Shown: piece by piece, positions 50,563 to 64,000 of the stretch
Layout: every line of letters begins with the position of its first letter
Position numbering within the stretch: the stretch's first letter is position 1
DNA from: SAR324 cluster bacterium
Lineage (GTDB): Bacteria; SAR324; NAC60-12
DNA: 64,000 bases
Direction of reading: 5' to 3'
Assembly (NCBI GenBank): GCA_015232315.1
Contig: JADFZZ010000025.1
Location: forward strand, 275 to 64,274
Translations under genes and position numbers: made by a program
Notes under the pieces: generated by a model
Databases searched by the model: none
What the model was told of the DNA's origin: nothing
The model's input: the letters and a program-made list of their open reading frames with translations, nothing else

Positions 50563-53130
50563 TTATCTAAACATATCCATGATCGTCGTAATGACGGTAG
50601 TGAGAGTGCTCGTATCATAAGTAAAGCGATAACCGCCAGTCTGCAAATGGCTGTTTAACGAAGTAACTCCAGCAATATCGCCTTCCTTGAGGAATGCGGC
50701 CCGGTGACATGCGCCACAGGCTTTCGCACCGGGGCCAACCACAACCGCCGGGGTCGCCGGGATCGGAGGCACACCAGTGACACTAACCTTTGTTGTTTCA
50801 GAGAGCACGCCTGGCATCGATTTGGCCTGATCTGGAACATCATAGGTTTTCCTGGAATATTCACCATTCAGTAATTTATCGGTTTCTCTGGTATCCCTAT
50901 GGCATGACTCACAGTTGATAGACGTGAAATCCGGAAACACAAACTCAATGTGCTCGTTATATCTCGCTTTTTCTACTGGATCAGAGAAATCAATATTTTG
51001 AATAGTAAAGGGCTCGAAACGATGAATCGCATGAACATAGGAATCAATGGATCGTGACTGGCCCTGCAAATTACTACCCGCTGTGATCGGCACATGACAC
51101 ATTCGGCAAACCACGATATTGCCCCCACGATCAGCGCTGTGGAAGGTGGTGGCCAACTGATCATGGCAACGGTTACAACCGCTAAGTCCGCCGTTATTGG
51201 CTGTAGTCACATCCACATTCACTATGGCATTGGCGCCTTTGAAATAATCATGGACGTAACCTACAGAATCCCCACTGTCCACATTATAAGTTTTGGACAC
51301 GGCATTGAGACCCACGTATGTGGTGCCACCAGTGACCAGAGGCAAACTAAGTCGGAAAGCGACTTCCATTTTGTGTACCTGACCGCCGGCAATCATATTA
51401 AGCAGAGTCTTACCACCAACCGAGGAACTTGCCGTGACAGAGGCTAAATTCATCGTCACTACCCATTTGCCGTCACTGCCGTCTGCATCAACTTCGGCAA
51501 AAGTGGTGCTTGCGGTACCCATGGTTTTGGAAATACCGGCGATGATGAAGTCCTTGGTATCATAGCCATAGAAGCCGACCGTAATGATCGGGGTAATATT
51601 TTTCACTTCCAGACCACCCGCAGTTCCTGTGGCACTGACGGTGATGGTAAGGGTATTGCCGGAGCGGGTCACGGAATCAATATCTCCTTTGATTTTATCC
51701 GCATACTTGTTTCCGGTGGAGTCATAAATTATAGGATCGTAGCCAGTGTGCAGTTTACTGAATACTGAAGCTCCGCCAGTTTTATGGCAAGAATTACAAT
51801 CAGCCGTAGTCACAGCTCCACTGACAACATGGGTCGATGTCACATTCTTTGCTTCCCACAGAGTCTTCAACGCCGGACCGGATTTTGATCCTACAGGTGG
51901 ATTGACCGTAGTATCCACTGTGTAATAGTAATTGCCTGAGCGATTTTTAATTTTTGAGATAGTATCTTTTCCACCAGTAACCGGGTGGCAACTCTTACAG
52001 GTTTCAAGGGTGAAGTTGGCATCCGTCAGGATTTTATCCAGTTTTCCAGCGTGGCAGGTAGTACAACTCTGCATGGACTGAGGATAAGGAAACTCCATGG
52101 CATGTGACATATGCACATCGTTCATCAGCTTGGTCTTGTAAGCGTATGTGGCTTTATCAGCATCAGATTTCTTTTTAGTTCCCAGAAAAATCTCCGCCCA
52201 ATACGCTGGGTTGTCCACAGCGATCTGCCAGTCTTCATGGCCACCACTGGTGTTGTCGAGATGACATACTTTACAAGTCAAGAAGTCCTGACTTCCATTC
52301 TGGCTGACATCACCGATGATGTAGCCATGCTTATAATAGGGTGTTCCATGGCAGTTTTGACAACCGGAGGCATTCGCGCTGGAAGCATAGTCTACCGTTC
52401 CCAGGGTCAGAACTCCTGCAAACGGGTATTTGGCAAGACTGATGTGGAGGCTTGGAATGGATTCTTGCAGTTCATCATCGCCATACACAACAACCAGTGC
52501 GTTGAGTTTTGACAAATCGCCAAGAGATGTTTCAGTGCTGACATTTGTACAGACATTGGTCTTGGAATTGTAAGAAAGGGTATCCCCGGCTTTTCCAGCA
52601 TTGGCTCTCAAACTCAATCTTTTAGGGGCCTGGAATTCAGCGTTGTCATCGCCTTTATATTCGCTCACGCCAATACTCAGCGCATCAGCATCAGTACAAT
52701 CGAAGTTCGCACCATTTTTCATCATTTTGAACGTGATGGTGTCATTTCCGCCACCATTTTCGTAAGTGATATCCGAAACAGTGATGGCATTATACTGGAA
52801 TAGCTCATTATATGCTTCCTGGTGACAAGCTCCATCTTTGGCCGCCAGTCCCTGATGACAAGTGGCACAGGACTCTGGTTGAACGTCAGAGGCCGATATC
52901 CGCATATTGCTGTGCGCTGTTTGCAGAGCACCGAGTCTCTCTGCACTCTTTTCAAAACAACGAGCCTTGATGGATGTTTCCTCAGAAACAGTCACACTCG
53001 TTCCATCTGTTCCATCTGTTCCATTCTGGCCGTCTTCGCCCTTTTCACTACAACCGATGATGAAGAGGGACATTCCCATCAACAGCATAAGAAGAAGTTT
53101 ATTCTTCATCATTTTATATATATTAACCAT
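50563..53130 (-). CDS. OmcA/MtrC-family decahaem c-type cytochrome, outer-membrane lipoprotein
   Basis: An 855-residue lipoprotein: signal peptide, lipobox FIIGC with Cys27, then a Gly-Asp-rich repeat (DGQNGTDGTDGTS). Ten CXXCH motifs are seen: CATCH, CQNCH, CKVCH, CTTCH, CKSCH, CNSCH, CNRCH, CRMCH, CESCH, CGACH. They group as one N-terminal, five in the middle, four near the C-terminus, separated by two beta-rich regions (about 110-240 and 430-590), as in OmcA/MtrC, whose surface-exposed haems reduce extracellular metals. AGGAGG-like GGAGG precedes ATG 53130. A 471-base leader gap with a terminator separates it from the upstream lipoprotein gene, so it probably has its own promoter. Its acceptor is unknown. 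Confidence 0.92.
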   Translation of the reverse strand: MVNIYKMMKNKLLLMLLMGMSLFIIGCSEKGEDGQNGTDGTDGTSVTVSEETSIKARCFEKSAERLGALQTAHSNMRISASDVQPESCATCHQGLAAKDGACHQEAYNELFQYNAITVSDITYENGGGNDTITFKMMKNGANFDCTDADALSIGVSEYKGDDNAEFQAPKRLSLRANAGKAGDTLSYNSKTNVCTNVSTETSLGDLSKLNALVVVYGDDELQESIPSLHISLAKYPFAGVLTLGTVDYASSANASGCQNCHGTPYYKHGYIIGDVSQNGSQDFLTCKVCHLDNTSGGHEDWQIAVDNPAYWAEIFLGTKKKSDADKATYAYKTKLMNDVHMSHAMEFPYPQSMQSCTTCHAGKLDKILTDANFTLETCKSCHPVTGGKDTISKIKNRSGNYYYTVDTTVNPPVGSKSGPALKTLWEAKNVTSTHVVSGAVTTADCNSCHKTGGASVFSKLHTGYDPIIYDSTGNKYADKIKGDIDSVTRSGNTLTITVSATGTAGGLEVKNITPIITVGFYGYDTKDFIIAGISKTMGTASTTFAEVDADGSDGKWVVTMNLASVTASSSVGGKTLLNMIAGGQVHKMEVAFRLSLPLVTGGTTYVGLNAVSKTYNVDSGDSVGYVHDYFKGANAIVNVDVTTANNGGLSGCNRCHDQLATTFHSADRGGNIVVCRMCHVPITAGSNLQGQSRSIDSYVHAIHRFEPFTIQNIDFSDPVEKARYNEHIEFVFPDFTSINCESCHRDTRETDKLLNGEYSRKTYDVPDQAKSMPGVLSETTKVSVTGVPPIPATPAVVVGPGAKACGACHRAAFLKEGDIAGVTSLNSHLQTGGYRFTYDTSTLTTVITTIMDMFR

Positions 53131-53601: not shown

Positions 53602-54357
53602 TTATAATTTTTCCCCTCCAAGGGCGACCGCAATCTGTTTGACTTGAGCCGAGGTAAAGGTAATCCCTCTCTCCTGATAGAATTTTACCATGTTGGCATC
53701 GGTCTCCAATGCTTTCTGAATTTTGTCCGCGTTGCGACTTGGTTTTTGGGTTGAAATAAACTGACCATGACAACTTGAACAATAGTTGTTTGTGTATAGA
53801 TCAGCCCCTTGCACGGCATCTGAAACACTGCTGATCTGATCGTCTGAAAGACTCAGTGTTCCCATTCCGCCTTTATTGGCGGTAATAGCAGCCTTAATAC
53901 CTGTGGCGGTTTTATCGGTGAAGGTGGCGGTTCCCAAATCTGTGTGGCATCCTGAATTGACACAACTCTGGGCATAGAAATAAGCCCCTCCCTGAAAATT
54001 GACGTTTTGCAAAATATTGGCAATAGCTGTTAGTTTTTCCCCTGGGACTTTTTTACTTTCCACCAGACCAATCAACAATCCCATCTCGCCTACATCGTCA
54101 AGAATCGCTTGTTGAATTTCTGTATCTGTACGCTTTGCTTCCGTAGTTTCTGACAGTGACTTATGACAAACCTCACAATATTGCGCATAAAGAGCTGTGC
54201 CGTCTGTTTCTTCGGCTTGATTCCCTATCACGGAATCAATGGAGTCTTCGCCCTCTTCAGGAGCACCGCAACTGATCACCATCAGACTGATGATAACAAT
54301 ACTCATAATCCATGTTGCTCGCATGATAATATCCTTTATAACACTGAAACGGCGCAT
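53602..54357 (-). CDS. Trihaem c-type cytochrome lipoprotein with a CX4CH motif
   Basis: A 251-residue lipoprotein (lipobox MVISC, Cys30). It contains three haem sites: CEVCH, CVNSGCH and CSSCH. The middle one has four residues between the cysteines, as in some tetrahaem cytochrome c3 sites. Two segments (ALYAQYCEVCH... and LYTNNYCSSCHGQ) resemble mono-haem cytochrome c modules, with candidate Met ligands (MGLLIG, GMGTLSL) after them. AGGAGA precedes ATG 54357. The NrfD stop is 128 bases upstream. It could shuttle electrons between the quinol module and the outer membrane. Confidence 0.85.
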   Translation of the reverse strand: MRRFSVIKDIIMRATWIMSIVIISLMVISCGAPEEGEDSIDSVIGNQAEETDGTALYAQYCEVCHKSLSETTEAKRTDTEIQQAILDDVGEMGLLIGLVESKKVPGEKLTAIANILQNVNFQGGAYFYAQSCVNSGCHTDLGTATFTDKTATGIKAAITANKGGMGTLSLSDDQISSVSDAVQGADLYTNNYCSSCHGQFISTQKPSRNADKIQKALETDANMVKFYQERGITFTSAQVKQIAVALGGEKL

Positions 54358-54485
54358 ATTTTCTCCTGACAATAGTTTAATTTTGGGTGATATCCTCTCT
54401 GAGGCAAATAAAGTCCAGCCATTTATTGAATTCTGAAGTTAACCACATCTCAGAATTTCTTCCAAATTGCTGATGCAAATAATTT

Positions 54486-55757
54486 CTAGTCCGCTACGTT
54501 GATCACTCTGTCGGTAGTCCGTTTTCCCCAATGAGGATCTTTTTCTGAGAGGCGTTCTTTTCTGAATGCGCCAATTTCGATCGGGACTGTCATTTTTGCC
54601 AGAAACGTAAAGATCAGTCCACCAATGGCCCAGATGCCTACACATACACCAATCTCATAAATGCTGGGGGAATACTCAACAATATCGCCCAATGGAGAAG
54701 GAATGAATCCCGGAATCACGAGGCCCATGCCTTTTTCGATCCAGATGCCAACAATCAACAGCAGGCAGGCGATGTTGAGAAAAAGCTTGTTATTACGCAA
54801 CTTATGAACAGAGAGAATAAAAACAGCGGTCACATTCAATGCAACGGCAGTCCAAATCCACGGAACCAGGTGGTTATGTCCCTCTAGTCCGAAAAACAGG
54901 TACTGAATTGAACTGGCATGTTGGGTTTGACTATAAAAGTCCGTGAAAAATTCAGCACCAAGCAAAAACAGACTGATTTGCAGTGCAACCGCAGTAATGA
55001 GAGCCAAACTTTCAATAACCTTTGCACTGACTTTCAGTTTTGTTTGTCGATCAATCACCTGCAATATCAGAATCATAAATGCCGGACCCGAAGAAAACGC
55101 GGAAGCCAGAAAGCGAGGTCCGAGAATGCTGGAATGCCAGAAAGGTCGGGAAACATTGGATGAAAACAGAAACGCTGTCACGGTGTGGATAGAGATCGCA
55201 AAAAAGATGGAAAGTAACACCAAGGGAAAATAAATTTTCGGATTGGGTTCCCTGCCTTCAAATTTTGTATAAAGCATGTAGGTCGGAATAATCAGATTCA
55301 ATATCAAGTAGGTGTTGATGACCACGACATCCCAAGCCAGCATGGAAGAGGGGAAATTCAAACGACCGATGAACGGAAGAATATGCCAAAGTCGATCCGG
55401 ACGTCCCAAACTGGCAAGAATGAACAGGATGCACATGATGCACGCTGTCGCCGCAATGACTTCGCCCATGATGACGACTTCCTTGATGGACTCTTGATGA
55501 AAAATATACGCGGGAATGACCAGCATGACCGCGGCCGCGGCAATTCCAACCATGAAAGCAAAATTGGCGATGTAAATGCCCCAGGGAACTTCCTCTCCCA
55601 GATCGGTGGAGTGAAGAGCCCCTACCTGAAACTGGTAGACATAACAATAGAGCCCCACCAACGCCAGAAAACCCAGCATAGCGACCCACGTCCAATAAAC
55701 GCGCCCTCCGCGAAATATTTCTAAAGCTGATTGCAAAAAAAACCGAACAACTTTCAT
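54486..55757 (-). CDS. NrfD-like quinol-oxidoreductase membrane subunit
   Basis: A 423-residue polytopic inner-membrane protein of the NrfD/PsrC/ActC family, with about ten predicted helices, e.g. WVAMLGFLALVGLYCYV, IYIANFAFMVGIAAAAVMLV, ILVIPAY, SSMLAWDVVVINTYLILNL. The family binds quinol and passes electrons to an iron-sulfur subunit; here that gene lies 10 bases upstream and the two are clearly paired. The C-terminus (EIGAFRKERLSEKDPHWG) is cytoplasmic and charged. The closest architecture in my memory is the Cbc, Qrc or alternative-complex III modules, but the arrangement does not equal any one of them. Confidence 0.9.
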   Translation of the reverse strand: MKVVRFFLQSALEIFRGGRVYWTWVAMLGFLALVGLYCYVYQFQVGALHSTDLGEEVPWGIYIANFAFMVGIAAAAVMLVIPAYIFHQESIKEVVIMGEVIAATACIMCILFILASLGRPDRLWHILPFIGRLNFPSSMLAWDVVVINTYLILNLIIPTYMLYTKFEGREPNPKIYFPLVLLSIFFAISIHTVTAFLFSSNVSRPFWHSSILGPRFLASAFSSGPAFMILILQVIDRQTKLKVSAKVIESLALITAVALQISLFLLGAEFFTDFYSQTQHASSIQYLFFGLEGHNHLVPWIWTAVALNVTAVFILSVHKLRNNKLFLNIACLLLIVGIWIEKGMGLVIPGFIPSPLGDIVEYSPSIYEIGVCVGIWAIGGLIFTFLAKMTVPIEIGAFRKERLSEKDPHWGKRTTDRVINVAD

Positions 55758-55767
55758 CAGATCTCCT

Positions 55768-56724
55768 CTAATCGGTATAATACCAGAATTTGGGATTAGT
55801 ATTTAATTCTTCTTTCAAGCGAAAAACGGTTTTGTTTTCCAGAATATAACGAATTTCGCTGTTTGGATCGAGCAGATTCCCAAAAACCCTGGCACCAGTA
55901 GGACAGGCTTCCAGACAGGCAGGTAATTTCCCTTTTCGGGTTCGTTGCACGCAGAAGGTACATTTTTCCATCACGCCACGTTCCCGGGGTCGGTTCCCCA
56001 GATAATGGGTGACAGGATTAATTTTTTCCGGAGGCAAATCAGGATCTTCCCAGTTGAAACGACGCGCCCAATAGGGACATGCCACCACACAGTAATGGCA
56101 CCCGATGCACCAGTTATAATCAATGACCACAATCCCGTCATCCTCTTTCCAGGTAGCTTTGGTGGGGCAGGCTCTCACGCAGGGGGGATTTTCGCAATGG
56201 TGACACTGGATCGGGAGATACATTTTCCCTTCCTGGGGAACAGTTTCCGAATCATAGTAATGATTTGATTCTTCAATGTTCATGGAGCCTTTATCCATCT
56301 CCAGCACACGGATGTACTGAATTTGAAGAGCCCGGCTGGTGTTGTTTTCTTCCATACATGCGGTAACACATTTGCGATAGCCCTTACACTTCGAGATATT
56401 CAGAGCGTATCCAAACAGAACCCCTTCAAGCGGAGGATCATTATTGATCTGGATGTCTACACCATATTTTCGTTTGGTCTTCCGTTCCAGACGGGCAATG
56501 GCATCAGCCACTTCTTCTTTGGTCATCTTCTGATAATGCCCCTGAAAAAATTCCTGAACCGCATCGGTGAAAGCATCGCCATCAACCGGGGTGGATGCCA
56601 TTGCCGTCGTAGCCGCAACGGTTGCCCCAGCAATACTGGCTTTTTTAAAAAATTTTCGTCGGGAAATTGCTTTCGTTGATCCGGAACCTGAATTTTCCGG
56701 GAGTTGTTCATTTGGGTCTGACAT
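55768..56724 (-). CDS. Tat-exported 4x[4Fe-4S]-type ferredoxin subunit (HybA/DsrO/PsrB-like)
   Basis: A 318-residue electron-transfer subunit. A twin-arginine motif SRRKFFK (21-27) precedes a hydrophobic stretch ending TTAMA, so it is exported folded. Cys groups: CKGYRKCVTAC; CHHCENPPCVRACP; CIGCHYCVVACP; CTFCVQ...CLEACP. In the first group the expected second Cys is Tyr (C-x2-Y-x2-C-x3-C), so one cluster would have an altered ligand set. It passes electrons between the NrfD subunit and the haem proteins encoded upstream. Neighbouring genes are 9 and 10 bases away. Confidence 0.92.
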   Translation of the reverse strand: MSDPNEQLPENSGSGSTKAISRRKFFKKASIAGATVAATTAMASTPVDGDAFTDAVQEFFQGHYQKMTKEEVADAIARLERKTKRKYGVDIQINNDPPLEGVLFGYALNISKCKGYRKCVTACMEENNTSRALQIQYIRVLEMDKGSMNIEESNHYYDSETVPQEGKMYLPIQCHHCENPPCVRACPTKATWKEDDGIVVIDYNWCIGCHYCVVACPYWARRFNWEDPDLPPEKINPVTHYLGNRPRERGVMEKCTFCVQRTRKGKLPACLEACPTGARVFGNLLDPNSEIRYILENKTVFRLKEELNTNPKFWYYTD

Positions 56725-57536: not shown

Positions 57537-59087
57537 TCATTCGTAAGTTTCTGCTCCACCGGTATGGCAATCGGAACAATCCGTATATTCACTCATTTTT
57601 TCATTTTCATCATCGCCTTCTCGGATAGGATGGCGAAATTCCAGGCCTTTTTCAAAGTCAACGGTTCCGGACTGAATGTTTTCGCCTTGTGCCAGGATCA
57701 AGTGACATTTATCACACGTTGTAAAAATGGTTTCCCCTTTGTCCGACTGCAATTGATCCGTGTGACAACGAAAACATCCTTGCCAATCCCGGTGTCCAAT
57801 ATTATCCGGATAGGCCGACCACTTGGTTTTCATCTCCGGGAAAATAGTTTTCTGATACACTTCCTGAACACCATTGATAGCGACTTCCACCTTTCCATTG
57901 TGTTCTTCAAAAATGTCCGGATAGTTTTCTTTATAAAAATCTCTGAGTGCATTCGCAATACCGACCACCGCCTCTTCTGTGGTTTCATAGTTGGTGTCAA
58001 TGGCTTTCACCGCCTCTTTTTTAATATAGGGAAGGTCCAATGGAATAACGCCTGATTCCATTGCCTGATTGATCGAATCCATGGGGCTTGGAAATTTATG
58101 GGCTGGGCGATTATGACAGTCCATGCAATCCATCACACGCACCGGCAAGGTTTTCCGTTCTTCTTCCGTGAGTGGTTTTTCTGTTTGATTGAAGGTGCTC
58201 ACACTTCCGTCCGAACGTTTGATACGGACCCAGGCGATGTTCTGCCGTTTTTCATCGCGAGCGATATATTCAACTTTGGAGGCCAGCAACATATGGTAAT
58301 GGATGCCTCGACCTTTCATCATCATCGTTTCTTCGCCACCAATCTTGATCAACATCCGAAGCTTATAGGGGGTATTGTCTTCGTCTGACAGGAAGTGGGT
58401 TTTGACTGTTTCCCGATAGCCAATAAATTTTTTGGGCCAGTGACAGGTTTCGCAGGTTTCGCGTGCAGGACGCAAATCATGGATGGGCGTGGGAATAGGA
58501 CGTGAATAGCTATTGGCCATCACCGCAAAAACCTGTCTTAGTCCTGATAACTTGGATTTGACATACCAATCAGCCCCACCGCCAATGTGACATTCCACAC
58601 ACTTCACCCGCGCATGAGAAGACTCATGATAGGTTGTCCACTCCGGTTTCATGACACTGTGGCAGGTCTGGCCACAGAATTCTACCGATTCTGTGACATG
58701 ATAACCTTTATAACTGGCAATCCCCAGAAGCAATGTGATTGAAACAGTTATGACTGAGCCGATGAACAAAGTCATCAACGGGTGGGTGAGTAAAAAATGC
58801 TCTGAAAACGATGAGACTTCTCCCCGCTTCTGTTTCTGCTTACCACGAATATGTCCAACGACGAACAGCGATATACCCACAATGGTAAAGCCAAACAGCA
58901 CCGCATAACCGATCCCGACATAGGACGAGGAGTCTTTGGAAAAGACCCCCGCAAAAAACAGAAACATCAAACCAATGACACCAATCAGGGCCAAAATGAA
59001 ACCCGACATATTCAAAAAGTTCAAGGGCATTTTCAAATGTCGCTTCTCTGGTGCGCCAGTCCCTGGATTATTTTCCGTCTCGTTCAT
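57537..59087 (-). CDS. NapC/NirT-type membrane multihaem cytochrome (seven haem motifs)
   Basis: A 516-residue inner-membrane cytochrome with three predicted helices (about 25-45, 57-80, 103-126). The periplasmic part has one CX3CH motif (CGQTCH, around residue 138) and six CXXCH: CVECH, CETCH, CMDCH, CFRCH, CDKCH, CSDCH. The stretch KSKLSGLRQVFAVMANSYSR and PARETCETCHWP are typical of deltaproteobacterial NapC/NirT homologues. It would take electrons from quinol and pass them to soluble cytochromes. The CX3CH first site replaces the usual CxxCH of NapC/NrfH; similar CX3CH versions occur in Geobacter-type homologues. Confidence 0.9.
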   Translation of the reverse strand: MNETENNPGTGAPEKRHLKMPLNFLNMSGFILALIGVIGLMFLFFAGVFSKDSSSYVGIGYAVLFGFTIVGISLFVVGHIRGKQKQKRGEVSSFSEHFLLTHPLMTLFIGSVITVSITLLLGIASYKGYHVTESVEFCGQTCHSVMKPEWTTYHESSHARVKCVECHIGGGADWYVKSKLSGLRQVFAVMANSYSRPIPTPIHDLRPARETCETCHWPKKFIGYRETVKTHFLSDEDNTPYKLRMLIKIGGEETMMMKGRGIHYHMLLASKVEYIARDEKRQNIAWVRIKRSDGSVSTFNQTEKPLTEEERKTLPVRVMDCMDCHNRPAHKFPSPMDSINQAMESGVIPLDLPYIKKEAVKAIDTNYETTEEAVVGIANALRDFYKENYPDIFEEHNGKVEVAINGVQEVYQKTIFPEMKTKWSAYPDNIGHRDWQGCFRCHTDQLQSDKGETIFTTCDKCHLILAQGENIQSGTVDFEKGLEFRHPIREGDDENEKMSEYTDCSDCHTGGAETYE

Positions 59088-59170: not shown

Positions 59171-59962
59171 TCACTTCTGCCGGGATTTCATCTGCTTACG
59201 GACTTCATCCCGTTTGGCACTGAGCGAATCGAGGACCGTGCGTGTTTTCGTGGCGATATTTTTGAGATCAAAGGTATGCCAGGTAGTTGAAAGATCTTCC
59301 AGTTGACCATCTATGCCGGTCAGGAAAGACTTGGTATCTGTGGGCTCTCCCCGAAGAGAAATATAGCGATAGAAGCGATGGATGGAAAGAAATTGATTGA
59401 GTAAATTCTCAGCTTTGTCAGGAATTTCAGGATTGTTTTTGGTTTTTTCATTGTGGCACTGAACACAGGTTTTTTTCACAGTGTTGACGTTCAACGCAGC
59501 CACATTGAGAGACCCATGACAGGTCACACAGTTGGGGCCCTGGTGTCCGTCTTTCTTTTTGGTGAGGTTCTCAAAATGAGGACTTTTGCGGTAGCCATTA
59601 TAAATATCATCATGACAGGTCCCACAAGTATCAGGAACATTGGCAAATCTCACATTGGAATCAATGTCTTTCCCATGAGCCAGTTTTTTATCTGCTTCTT
59701 CCTGATTGCCCCCATGACAATCAGTACAGGTCACTTCTTCCTGATTATGTGTCGACGAAGTCCATTGCTGGAAATAATTGTATAATTTTTTATTGGTCAC
59801 CAGAAAATCCGAATCGCTGTGACAATCGACACAGGAGTTTTCAACTTTTTTTGCAAAAGCCAGTCCGCCAGTTCCCACAAGAAATGCAACGTTCACAAGG
59901 AAACATAACAAAAACAAATATCGTTTTTCTGAAATATTTCTATCTAAGCGCTGACAGTTCAT
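59171..59962 (-). CDS. Pentahaem periplasmic cytochrome c
   Basis: A 263-residue protein with a signal peptide (FLLCFLVNVAFLVGTGGLAFA, cleaved near residue 37) and five CXXCH: CVDCH, CTDCH, CGTCH, CVTCH, CVQCH in residues 43-170, followed by a 90-residue haem-free helical tail. A candidate haem-ligating His occurs near SSTHNQEEV and SPHFENL. No family was recognised beyond a general NrfB/MtrA-like or tetrahaem-flavocytochrome style. It lies between the heptahaem gene (83 bases) and the c554-like gene (145 bases), in the same direction. Confidence 0.85.
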   Translation of the reverse strand: MNCQRLDRNISEKRYLFLLCFLVNVAFLVGTGGLAFAKKVENSCVDCHSDSDFLVTNKKLYNYFQQWTSSTHNQEEVTCTDCHGGNQEEADKKLAHGKDIDSNVRFANVPDTCGTCHDDIYNGYRKSPHFENLTKKKDGHQGPNCVTCHGSLNVAALNVNTVKKTCVQCHNEKTKNNPEIPDKAENLLNQFLSIHRFYRYISLRGEPTDTKSFLTGIDGQLEDLSTTWHTFDLKNIATKTRTVLDSLSAKRDEVRKQMKSRQK

Positions 59963-60107: not shown

Positions 60108-60827
60108 TTATTCTTTGTCATCCTCATCAGCATCGTCAGCTTTATCACTTCCGCCGTCATCATATGGTCCTCGTGGATGAGCAATATCCTTCTTGGCTTG
60201 TTCAAAATCGAAACCTTTTTTCGGATCCCAGCTAGGATTTTTGAAGGTTTTGCCACCAACAGTGATTTCCGCGGCATGACATTGTGTACAATTCTCTTTA
60301 GTTCCCAAACTCAAACCAAATTTTTCTTTCAGGTTTTCCCGTTCTGTTTTGAGAGCCGAGGCAGTTTTATCATACTCAGGTGTTCCTTCTTTGAGTTTTG
60401 CCAGTTCCATTTTTAAACGGTGCAATTCTTTTTTAACCTTTTTACTTTTGTAGTTGCTTCCAGGACCATGGCAAGACTCACATTGCACACCGTCTTCCAT
60501 ACTGAATTTTTTATCAAACATTTTTTTGTCTTCACCATAACCTGTCACATGACAAGTCAAGCATTCAGCACTTTCAGAAGGAACTCCGGTGAAACCGATT
60601 TTCTTCGCGGCTTCCAGGGCTTTGTCGGATTTCAGCGTTTCAAAAGATTTGGCCAGTTTTGTTTTTTGCCAGATTTTAAACTGCTCGCCTTCTTTTTCAC
60701 TTTTATGGCACTTTTTACATTGATTGACACCTACATACTTAGCAGGCTTTGCCTGACTCTGTCCACTCAACGGAAAAGCCCACACCAGTCCTAACATTGA
60801 AAGAACAATCACTCCTTTTTTCCACAT
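60108..60827 (-). CDS. Cytochrome c554-like tetrahaem protein
   Basis: A 239-residue exported protein (signal peptide to about residue 25, SQAKPAKYVG). It has CKKCH, CLTCH, CESCH, CTQCH with YVGVNQCKKCHKSEKEGEQFKIWQKTKLAK and ECLTCHVTGYGEDKKMF, the pattern of the cytochrome c554 family (hydroxylamine-oxidation partner in nitrifiers, and relatives in Deltaproteobacteria). A Lys/Glu-rich coiled-coil insert (HRLKMELAKLKEGTPEYDKT, about 125-165) is unusual. The acidic tail DDGGSDKADDADEDDKE ends it. I set the start at ATG 60827, with AGGAG seven bases upstream. Confidence 0.88.
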   Translation of the reverse strand: MWKKGVIVLSMLGLVWAFPLSGQSQAKPAKYVGVNQCKKCHKSEKEGEQFKIWQKTKLAKSFETLKSDKALEAAKKIGFTGVPSESAECLTCHVTGYGEDKKMFDKKFSMEDGVQCESCHGPGSNYKSKKVKKELHRLKMELAKLKEGTPEYDKTASALKTERENLKEKFGLSLGTKENCTQCHAAEITVGGKTFKNPSWDPKKGFDFEQAKKDIAHPRGPYDDGGSDKADDADEDDKE

Positions 60828-60892
60828 ACCCATCTCCTTTGGTTTGTTGTTGATCAAAATTACTTTACAGGCAGAACAGCCCTCCCCTTATC

Positions 60893-60912
60893 AGTGCGCT
60901 TTATTGCGCACT
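60893..60912 (-). promoter_or_regulatory. Hairpin between the dodecahaem and c554-like genes
   Basis: AGTGCGC (60893-60899) and GCGCACT (60906-60912) form a perfect 7-base-pair stem with a 6-base loop. On the minus strand an A-rich run precedes it (bases 60919-60925) and no U-run follows. It is 65 bases before the c554-like ATG and could be an mRNA processing or stability element inside the operon. Confidence 0.4.
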
Positions 60913-60983: not shown

Positions 60984-61997
60984 TCAATTTTTAAGGTGTT
61001 GCGGAGTACGATGGCATAACATACAACCCTCCTCGGGTGTCGAATTGGACTCCAGGTGACATCCCAGACAATGATTTTGACTCCAGTTCGCAATATGAGA
61101 GCGAGGAGCTGTTTCATTGTGACAGGCCACACAAGTATCCTGTTTGTGACAGGTCATGCATTTTTCACGGTCGGCACTTGCCATGATGCCATGTCCACGA
61201 GCCTGCCAGAACTGAGTGTGGTCTTTGGGCTTTTCGGTCTTATGACAATCCACACATGTTTTCTGGACATGACACGTCATGCAGTCTTTGCCATGAGAGC
61301 CTTCATTGAGATGAGACACGGTTCCATGGTATTTAGGCCACTGAGCCTTGTGCTGGTCAGGTTTGAAGTTTTGATCAAAAGTATCTTTGGTGTGGCAGGA
61401 TTGACAGGCATTCCGCACCTGAAATCCCTCAATTTGCTCCAGGTGACAATCAATACATTGTCTGGGCGTTGGCATATACTTACCGACAGGAATTTCTAGC
61501 CCTTCATCGTGCGCAATATCGCCATGACAGGCTTCGCATTTCAAATCCTTATCAAGATGCGTCTTGTGAGAAAATTCCAGATTTTTATAGGGACGAGGCC
61601 CCATTTTGACTACCCGTTTTTTAGCTTCAATATCAGCAAGATCGGCCAAAGTTCCAGTGTGGCAGGTGAGACATTCTTCCTTATCCACTTCTGTAGTTTC
61701 AGTTTCCTCAACGTCAGCGTCATCATTTTCATCATTTTCGTTGTCGCTGTTCACAAGACCTGTATTTTCATGGCAATCCGCACAGGTTTCCTTGGTGGGA
61801 AGAAGTTTTCCTTTTTCCGCACCTTCTTCGTGGCAATCCTCGCACGCTTTTTCTTCTTCAACAACATGCTTGAAATGATTTAATTTCAGATCGCGTCTAT
61901 GCTCTTCAGCCTGAAGCGAGTGACCTCCCAAGAACAGCATCAGCAAGCTCACAAGGCATATAAAATTGCGTTGGATTGGGGAATATTTAGAAATCAC
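60984..61997 (-). CDS. Dodecahaem periplasmic c-type cytochrome
   Basis: A 337-residue exported cytochrome with twelve CXXCH motifs: CEDCH, CADCH, CLTCH, CEACH, CIDCH, CQSCH, CMTCH, CVDCH, CMTCH, CVACH, CLGCH, CMLCH. The density, one haem per 28 residues, implies a closely packed haem wire. An acidic insert (NSDNENDENDDADVEETETTE) sits between motifs 2 and 3. It starts at GTG 61997 with a perfect-looking GGAGGT six to seven bases upstream, inside the porin gene, which it overlaps by 11 bases. The neighbour is a beta-barrel, so it probably plugs the barrel from the periplasm, like MtrA or OmaB. Confidence 0.93.
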   Translation of the reverse strand: MISKYSPIQRNFICLVSLLMLFLGGHSLQAEEHRRDLKLNHFKHVVEEEKACEDCHEEGAEKGKLLPTKETCADCHENTGLVNSDNENDENDDADVEETETTEVDKEECLTCHTGTLADLADIEAKKRVVKMGPRPYKNLEFSHKTHLDKDLKCEACHGDIAHDEGLEIPVGKYMPTPRQCIDCHLEQIEGFQVRNACQSCHTKDTFDQNFKPDQHKAQWPKYHGTVSHLNEGSHGKDCMTCHVQKTCVDCHKTEKPKDHTQFWQARGHGIMASADREKCMTCHKQDTCVACHNETAPRSHIANWSQNHCLGCHLESNSTPEEGCMLCHRTPQHLKN

Positions 61998-63390
61998 GAC
62001 GTACCTCCACCTTCATAGTTTGATAATCTTCCAGGCTTTGCTCCATTTCAACGCCACCGGTGACCTTGTAATGCTCGCCAACGGGAATCGTTGCTTTCAC
62101 ATATTGTGTTTGCACCTCAGTGCGTTCTCCCAATTCCAGATAATCTTCATATTTATACAGACTGAAGTAAGTACCGACATTCACTTTCAAGGCACGCTTT
62201 TTTCCGTTGCGGTATTCCAGATCAAAACCTCCGGAGTTGCCTTCATACGTTTTGCTTTGCCATTGCTCCCCGGTCAGGGACAGCGATAAATTTTCCATGA
62301 GAAACTCATACACTTCAAACACAGTAAACGCCCTGGAATATTCGCGGTTGAAGACACTTTCATCTTCTGTGTCCAGCAACGCCCGAGCAAAATACCCCAG
62401 ACTCAGCGAATAGTTGTCCGCAAATTCTTTACGAACCTTGAGGTCATAACTGTGATATGGATTGGAATCGCCCAGCACATCATAAAACAACGATGTTTCA
62501 TTGGACAATTCCTGCTGTAAGAGGAGTTGTCGGAAATAGCGGAAATACAATTCAAACCCTGCGAGATCGCTATTGAGAGAACTGAGTGTCATATCTCTTG
62601 TCTCGCCATTGAGCCAACGTACTTTTGCGATGCCTTTTGAACCGGGAGCAAACAATTGTTGCAGTTTCAGTGAGACCATTTGATCATTTTGATCAGTAAC
62701 CTCTTTTCGTTGAGTCCGTTCATCCTTGGCGGAAAGCACATCCAGGCTTAACTTGGTACTTTCCAACGGAGAATAATCAACACCGAAAATTGCAGTCACA
62801 TCTGAACCCGGTGTTGTTTCATGATAGTGAACACTCTTGCCTCCACTGACAGTAAAGAACCATTCAGAAGAGAGTTTCAGATCCGCGGCAATCCCATCAA
62901 AATAAATCCAGCCATCACGGGTGCTCGCTTGCCGCCCTAGCCGAAGTTGATTCAACTTCATGACGTGATTCATATCAAAATGAGCCTCATACACATAGCT
63001 TGAAGACGCCTCCTGAGTATCGCCGAGATCCCTGAAAGGGTCATACGCTGTCTCTGCAGGATCAACTGGATCCAGATCAGTCCGGTTTTCTCCAAAAAAA
63101 TGAAATTCGTAAGCGTTGTCCGACATAATGAGATCAGCTCCCACTTTGGTGCGCAGATCCTGATCGGTATAGTCAACGTCATTATAGGTCGTGGATCGGG
63201 AGATATAAGCGACGGAAATAAATCCCATGCGGTCTGTTGTTTTCTTCTCAGGGACCGTCTCTTTGGATTCCTGCTCAGAAGAGGACTCTTCAGCAAAAAC
63301 AGCAGCAGGGATCAAAAAAAGCGCGGTGTAACAAATGAAGAAGATAAGGAGGAGAGTGGTCCTGATAGAATGTTGTTGAAGTGTAAACAT
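61987..63390 (-). CDS. Outer-membrane beta-barrel (porin-like) of the electron-conduit operon
   Basis: A 467-residue protein. The signal peptide (TTLLLIFFICYTALFLIPAAVFA) is followed by an acidic linker (ESSSEQESKETVPEKKTT) and then amphipathic strands through to the terminal Phe (MKVEVRRDF), with aromatic girdles such as FMELY/YFRYFRQLLL. No plug domain or TonB box is seen. The gene overlaps the dodecahaem gene by 11 bases, the classic sign of a porin-cytochrome pair such as MtrB-MtrA or Geobacter Omb-Oma. ATG 63390 has only a weak ribosome site (gtgag). It is the first gene of the cytochrome operon. Confidence 0.82.
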   Translation of the reverse strand: MFTLQQHSIRTTLLLIFFICYTALFLIPAAVFAEESSSEQESKETVPEKKTTDRMGFISVAYISRSTTYNDVDYTDQDLRTKVGADLIMSDNAYEFHFFGENRTDLDPVDPAETAYDPFRDLGDTQEASSSYVYEAHFDMNHVMKLNQLRLGRQASTRDGWIYFDGIAADLKLSSEWFFTVSGGKSVHYHETTPGSDVTAIFGVDYSPLESTKLSLDVLSAKDERTQRKEVTDQNDQMVSLKLQQLFAPGSKGIAKVRWLNGETRDMTLSSLNSDLAGFELYFRYFRQLLLQQELSNETSLFYDVLGDSNPYHSYDLKVRKEFADNYSLSLGYFARALLDTEDESVFNREYSRAFTVFEVYEFLMENLSLSLTGEQWQSKTYEGNSGGFDLEYRNGKKRALKVNVGTYFSLYKYEDYLELGERTEVQTQYVKATIPVGEHYKVTGGVEMEQSLEDYQTMKVEVRRDF

Positions 63391-64000
63391 TCGCAACTCA
63401 CTAATTAAACACATTAAAAAATACTGGAACTGACATGATCATCAGCACCTGGGTTCCTGGTCACGCCAAGCATGATTTTAATGACACCTGATACTAAACC
63501 ATCTGATTTATTAACCCTTGCCGTCTACTCTTGTGTTGAAACAATTTCCAGATAATTATGCAATTATTTGTTTTATAAAAATGCACCACAATGAAATGGT
63601 TTATGATAAAATCAATGACATTAACGTATTAGGTTGGAGAAAATTTCTCCATCGACAATTTGATGGAAAAACGACTGCGACAAAACGCATCATTATACCT
63701 GGCGATACGCAACACAAACATACCATGTCTCATTAAAATAAATGATGGCACAAGAAAAGTGGCTCTCCGAGCTTTTCCGTGGTTGAAGTTTGAACTGAAG
63801 GGATTACGATGGTTCCCCTTTTGTCAAGGATGAGGTCACGATGGGATTTGAACTGGATTGAGAGTTATCGGATGTCGAGGTGTTGCGTGTCGAGCGTGAT
63901 GAGAAGCCGGTGGAGTCCATGTTAACGCAGTCCTTTTTTGGTGAACATCCACTGGAGCATATTCAATTAAGGGTATTTACCATCGATGCTTCCAGCAGTT
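63391..64000. other. Upstream region of the cytochrome operon and window edge
   Basis: No convincing gene occurs in 63391-63840. The operon promoter must lie here, on the minus strand; I could not pick one box pair with confidence. From 63799 a plus-strand frame is open to the window end except for one TGA (63859-63861). It contains ATG 63841 preceded by AAGGATGAGG. Codons after the TGA read like protein (LSDVEVLRVERDEKPVES...). It may be a partial gene that starts beyond the TGA (GTG 63880) or a pseudogene. Confidence 0.4.
63709..63759. repeat. Dispersed intergenic repeat, copy 2
   Basis: Bases 63735-63759 are the exact reverse complement of 21618-21642, and CATACCATGTCTCAT just before them matches the first copy with one mismatch. 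The copies differ by a 6-base insertion in the middle. It lies in the divergent gap beyond the cytochrome operon. Confidence 0.7.

Follow-up and report, generated by a model that had tools for sequence, protein, structure and literature searches.

In a 64,000-nucleotide stretch of a SAR324 cluster bacterium genome (assembly GCA_015232315.1, contig JADFZZ010000025.1, positions 275 to 64,274; hereafter the window), a gene for an outer-membrane beta-barrel overlaps a gene for a twelve-haem c-type cytochrome. The pair very likely encodes a Pcc-type conduit, with a 22-strand sheath in the outer membrane and a 12-haem wire threaded through it. An initial annotation of the window had predicted a porin-cytochrome plug, and this reading is supported by a strict linkage of the barrel family to multihaem genes, a 22-strand model, histidine conservation suited to bis-His ligation, and ImcH-type and MtrC-like neighbours. 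Computed here were the association of the two genes and how far it is conserved, the sequence motifs, the predicted barrel and the gene neighbourhood. The host (genome G000) is an uncultured and apparently magnetotactic SAR324 bacterium. The main elements are as follows:

61987..63414, minus strand: outer-membrane beta-barrel, 475 aa, signal peptide, C-terminal Phe; 22 strands in the AlphaFold2 (AF2) model; no Pfam/NCBIfam family
60984..61997, minus strand: c-type cytochrome of 337 aa with 12 haems, a Sec-type signal peptide and no lipobox; c7-like N-terminal half and C-terminal hexahaem core (CXXCH count, profile matches)
61987..61997, minus strand: 11-bp overlap of the barrel stop and the cytochrome GTG start, kept in six lineages
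62003..62008, minus strand: GGAGGT Shine-Dalgarno-like site for the cytochrome, within the barrel gene, 5 nt ahead of the GTG (sequence read)

Conservation of the gene pair

The minus-strand junction reads ...AAG GTG GAG GTA CGT CGT GAT TTC TAA, and the cytochrome opens GTG ATT TCT AA. The initial annotation had proposed the 11-base overlap of the barrel stop and the cytochrome GTG and the GGAGGT site inside the barrel gene; both were borne out, the site ending 5 nt before this GTG. The barrel and the cytochrome may be translationally coupled, which would suit the 1:1 expression suggested in the initial annotation. Promoter and terminator scans gave nothing above shuffles.

The SAR324 phylum is represented by 52 genomes in our collection, 4 of which carry the pair (the window's own genome, G002, G004 and G045). 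Barrel homologues were found in G002 and G004 at 40-41% identity and as a split copy in G045; in each case the next gene has 12 CXXCH motifs and overlaps the barrel gene by 11 bp. Scanning with the cytochrome alignment brought in two contigs from other phyla, L022 of the Planctomycetota (13 CXXCH) and L023 of the Nitrospirota (7 CXXCH). On both, a barrel gene lies immediately 5' of the cytochrome gene, and the overlap is once more 11 bp. As the pair and the identical overlap are kept in six lineages (window, G002, G004, G045, Planctomycetota and Nitrospirota), the pairing of barrel and cytochrome is, at the level of sequence comparison, far beyond chance. In the tree, the window barrel, the SAR324 copies from G002 and G004 and the Nitrospirota copy form one group (support 100/100), and among full-length rows the window barrel has its highest identity to the last of these (44%). 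This grouping and this identity suggest a transfer of the barrel between phyla.

We then ran a barrel profile, made of seven barrel rows, over 383 genomes and obtained matches in 24 of them. Setting aside the four SAR324 genomes contained in the profile left 22 further loci in 20 genomes, of which L044 and L049 are truncated by the end of their contig and were set aside. In all 20 informative loci the barrel is immediately followed, with an overlap or within ~70 bases, by a multihaem gene that has 5-14 CXXCH motifs. The profile describes a family beyond Pfam/NCBIfam coverage and, given the multihaem neighbour at every informative locus, may serve to search further phyla for conduits.

Predicted barrel

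The barrel open reading frame (ORF) may start at 63414; an ATG at 63390, eight codons on, gives a neater signal peptide. The C-terminal Phe is usual in outer-membrane barrels. Neither the window barrel nor its relatives reached the cut-off of any Pfam or NCBIfam model, those for MtrB/PioB among them, and single-sequence searches with the barrel gave no match in the PDB or in the genome contigs. The AF2 model, calculated from a five-sequence alignment, has 22 strands and is of moderate confidence (predicted local distance difference test, pLDDT, 67.9; predicted template modelling score, pTM, 0.59). In a fold search its best matches were ushers and other large outer-membrane barrels; the first 50 matches comprised generic large barrels only, MtrB being absent from them.

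A barrel too small to hold a cytochrome had been named at the outset as an outcome that would speak against the plug. Calculated from shear and number of strands, the C-alpha diameter of a barrel with 22 strands would be ~40 Å and its lumen ~30 Å. For comparison, MtrA measures ~80 x 30 x 35 Å and the opening of MtrB at the periplasmic face is ~30 Å (PMC7198977). Against these dimensions a lumen of ~30 Å is not too small, and the fit of an MtrA-like cytochrome in a 22-strand barrel would be close, not generous.

Twelve-haem cytochrome

The CXXCH count confirmed the twelve haems in 337 residues of the initial annotation, that is ~28 residues per haem. The annotation's remark that this is denser than in MtrA and OmaB also holds, but the density is not unusual, PCC3 cytochromes having a median of 26 residues per haem. 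The idea that twelve haems are themselves unusual was rejected on the literature: ExtA has 12, and the two-gene pcc systems of Anaeromyxobacter and Ca. Kuenenia have 12-14 in 338-344 aa (PMC4245776).

Across the four SAR324 cytochromes, exactly 12 histidines outside the CXXCH motifs are invariant, one per haem. With these 12 further invariant histidines there would be enough ligands for twelve bis-His haems, and the pattern is consistent with bis-His ligation of all of them. When the set is extended to six cytochromes, seven non-CXXCH histidines remain invariant, all in the C-terminal half, beside the six proximal ones.

The N-terminal half resembles c7-type haem chains (PDB 3ov0, E 3.5e-16, cytochrome profile against the PDB), from which the C-terminal hexahaem half differs. 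MtrA was not among the PDB matches of this profile.

Cytochrome half associated with the barrel

A hidden Markov model (HMM) of the C-terminal hexahaem half scored 31-228 bits on 24 of the 25 barrel-partner cytochromes and 18.5 bits on the remaining one, while the best score on 44 other multihaem ORFs, mostly taken from the same loci as the partner cytochromes, was 18.1 bits. Six of the 25 partners had served to build the HMM; 18 of the 19 others were clearly above the controls. At locus L051 a 12-haem gene lies downstream of the barrel and its cytochrome gives no match to the C-terminal HMM. An HMM of the N-terminal half separated less well, with controls reaching 41 bits; this half, which is absent from the 7-haem Nitrospirota partner, is dispensable. 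Because the C-terminal hexahaem domain is common to the barrel partners, we take the C-terminal half as the putative plug and the N-terminal half as a likely periplasmic lead. A conserved C-terminal core beside a variable N-terminal chain points to the candidate half for barrel binding.

Two traits of the partners outside SAR324 may be added. The Nitrospirota partner (L023, 5821-6435), with 7 CXXCH and no N-terminal c7-like half, has the form of a minimal plug. In this protein and in the Planctomycetota partner (L022, 2716-3741), the signal sequence has a lipobox-like Cys close to its end; the SAR324 partners are without it.

Surrounding gene run

The pair belongs to a run of ten minus-strand genes extending from 63414 to 50563. 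The other eight are:

60108..60857, minus strand: 4-haem cytochrome c554-like periplasmic protein (PF13435, E 1.3e-20)
59171..59962, minus strand: 5-haem periplasmic cytochrome (library scan)
57537..59087, minus strand: ImcH-like quinol oxidase, 516 aa, three N-terminal transmembrane regions, CX3CH, six CX2CH (architecture as in PMC6295460)
56734..57579, minus strand: 4-haem cytochrome (library scan)
55768..56724, minus strand: iron-sulphur (Fe-S) protein, DsrO/QrcC-like (NF045797, 199.5 bits, cut-off 200)
54486..55757, minus strand: NrfD/DsrP-type membrane quinone-interacting subunit (NF045798, 390.9 bits, cut-off 350)
53602..54372, minus strand: small c-type cytochrome lipoprotein, two CXXCH and one CX4CH (library scan)
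50563..53130, minus strand: MtrC/OmcA-like decahaem lipoprotein, likely outer-surface partner (PF22113, 72 bits)

ImcH quinol oxidases have 495-519 aa, three transmembrane segments, one CX3CH and six CX2CH motifs (PMC6295460). The protein encoded at 57537-59087 displays this architecture, with 516 aa, a CX3CH at 138, six CX2CH and three hydrophobic regions, for seven haems in all; it is 50-60% identical to proteins located beside or near the pair in the other SAR324 genomes that have it. In G002, the gene just 5' of the barrel encodes a homologue (38% identical) of the MtrC-like lipoprotein. The run would form a near-complete route for electrons from quinol to the cell surface within a single SAR324 gene cluster; we found no earlier report of a porin-cytochrome conduit in this host.

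Some minor features of the run were also recorded. DsrOP-like Fe-S and NrfD subunits (54486-56724) are encoded within the multihaem run, with no DsrMK homologue seen next to them. In G002 (L006, 14117-16378) and G004 (L008, 12247-14529) a 13-haem lipoprotein is encoded directly downstream of the dodecahaem gene, a position where the window has none. A palindrome, AGTGCGCTTTATTGCGCACT, lies at 60893-60912 between the dodecahaem and the c554-like genes.

Comparison with known conduits

In the Pcc systems surveyed by Shi et al. (2014), porins with 18-22 trans-outer-membrane segments accompany periplasmic cytochromes of 5-14 haems (PMC4245776). Here too a porin-like gene adjoins a multihaem gene, as in OmbB-OmaB-OmcB and especially in the two-gene pcc of Anaeromyxobacter and Ca. 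Kuenenia, with 22 predicted strands and, in 337 aa, 12 CXXCH motifs, a signal peptide and no lipobox. SAR324 lies outside that survey, and the window differs by the MtrC-like decahaem lipoprotein and the ImcH-like protein of the same run. The ExtABCD system of Geobacter sulfurreducens likewise combines a periplasmic dodecahaem cytochrome (ExtA) and a barrel (ExtB), with lipoprotein cytochromes beside them (PMC6148476); ExtB, however, has 18 predicted strands against 22 here, and in the window the barrel gene comes first. In its layout and its numbers of strands and haems the window pair resembles the Pcc systems and ExtA/ExtB, so that it is best placed, as Pcc/Ext-like, in a known kind of device. 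Porin-dodecahaem complexes are also described in Ca. Manganitrophus, of the Nitrospirota, the phylum of the close relative L023, and are proposed to serve Mn(II) oxidation, that is, inward flow (PMC9040806).

Shewanella MtrAB has 26 strands and 10 haems and works as a multihaem wire in a barrel sheath with an MtrC-type surface cytochrome (PMC7198977). The window pair shares the wire-in-sheath principle and the MtrC-type surface partner in its run, but differs by its 22 strands and 12 haems and has no detectable sequence similarity to MtrAB. The initial annotation had offered an Omb/Oma or an MtrB/MtrA complex; the former survives as a Pcc/Ext-like assignment, while the latter fails by sequence, with no MtrB/PioB match and with 12 haems.

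Electron path and alternative explanations

The 22-strand barrel would form the outer-membrane sheath and the 12-haem cytochrome the wire through it. We infer the placement of the cytochrome inside the barrel, as well as the direction of flow and the acceptor: the C-terminal hexahaem half would sit in the barrel and the c7-like N-terminal hexahaem half would extend into the periplasm and gather electrons. Electrons would probably run outward, from quinol to the ImcH-like protein and the NrfD/Fe-S subunits, on to the periplasmic 4-5-haem cytochromes and the plug, and from there through the MtrC-like surface lipoprotein to an extracellular acceptor such as Fe(III). Outward flow is favoured because quinol oxidation is the only role in which homologues of ImcH have been implicated to date (PMC6295460).

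The same conduit could be run inward, with Fe(II) or some other donor outside the cell supplying the electrons, as has been put forward for MtoAB/PioAB and for the complexes of Ca. Manganitrophus. The role in Mn(II) oxidation proposed for the Nitrospirota porin-dodecahaem complexes and the possible reversibility of quinone-linked modules argue for this direction; the MtrC-like character of the surface partner argues against it, and we regard it as unlikely. Alternatively, the barrel would be a porin for solutes like many others, the 12-haem cytochrome would be a free periplasmic carrier, and their overlap would reflect operon packing only. Such a view draws on a barrel that belongs to no recognised family and on an N-terminal half resembling soluble c7 polymers. 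It conflicts with the multihaem gene directly downstream of the barrel in 20/20 informative loci and with the common C-terminal haem domain that tracks the barrel, and is very unlikely.

Several points weigh against a threaded conduit of the Pcc type. The barrel model was built on five sequences, with pLDDT ranging from 25.6 to 67.9 across five models; the AF2 model of the cytochrome (pLDDT 41.6) is unusable for shape or fit; and the likeness to OmbB/OmaB and ExtA/B is one of layout, strand number and haem number. Membership of the MtrAB/PioAB family, suggested by the layout of a barrel with a multihaem plug and by the MtrC-like lipoprotein of the run, was rejected on sequence and is the least probable explanation of all, little short of negligible. 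PF11854, searched over the whole host genome, and the MtrB/PioB Pfam and NCBIfam models, searched on the barrel, gave no match; the cytochrome profile did not retrieve MtrA from the PDB, and the counts are 12 haems, not 10, and 22 strands, not 26.

Magnetosome genes in the host genome

Genes for MamM (388 bits, cut-off 350) and for proteins resembling MamE, MamP and MamX are present in the host genome, along with nine matches to magnetochrome domains; the magnetosome genes are located as follows:

G000:C3:170000-189999 (L064) and G000:C17:32000-48000 (L065): magnetosome genes, MamM above cut-off, magnetochrome domains

Magnetochrome domains were detected in 3 of the 52 SAR324 genomes. All three carry the barrel-cytochrome pair, which is present in one further genome without these domains (Fisher p = 1.8e-4, uncorrected for shared descent). 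With so few genomes, and with the three that have magnetochrome domains falling in a single family, this genomic co-occurrence of conduit and magnetosome genes may serve as a lead only. It is conceivable, and we propose it tentatively, that magnetotactic SAR324 use a Pcc conduit with a modular plug to respire extracellular iron, the barrel holding a conserved C-terminal hexahaem core and the periplasm an exchangeable N-terminal haem chain, and that they carry conduit and magnetosome genes together. The portions of the genomic surveys PMC9031357 and PMC4782131 reached by keyword search describe no outer-membrane conduit in SAR324. Through the co-occurrence with magnetosome genes, a possible connection of magnetotaxis with the respiration of extracellular iron becomes open to test. 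Finally, two of the closest relatives are from SAR324 cluster bacterium nPCRbin10 and nPCRbin7; nPCR_bin7 is reported to be a magnetotactic SAR324 genome (PMC7602337).
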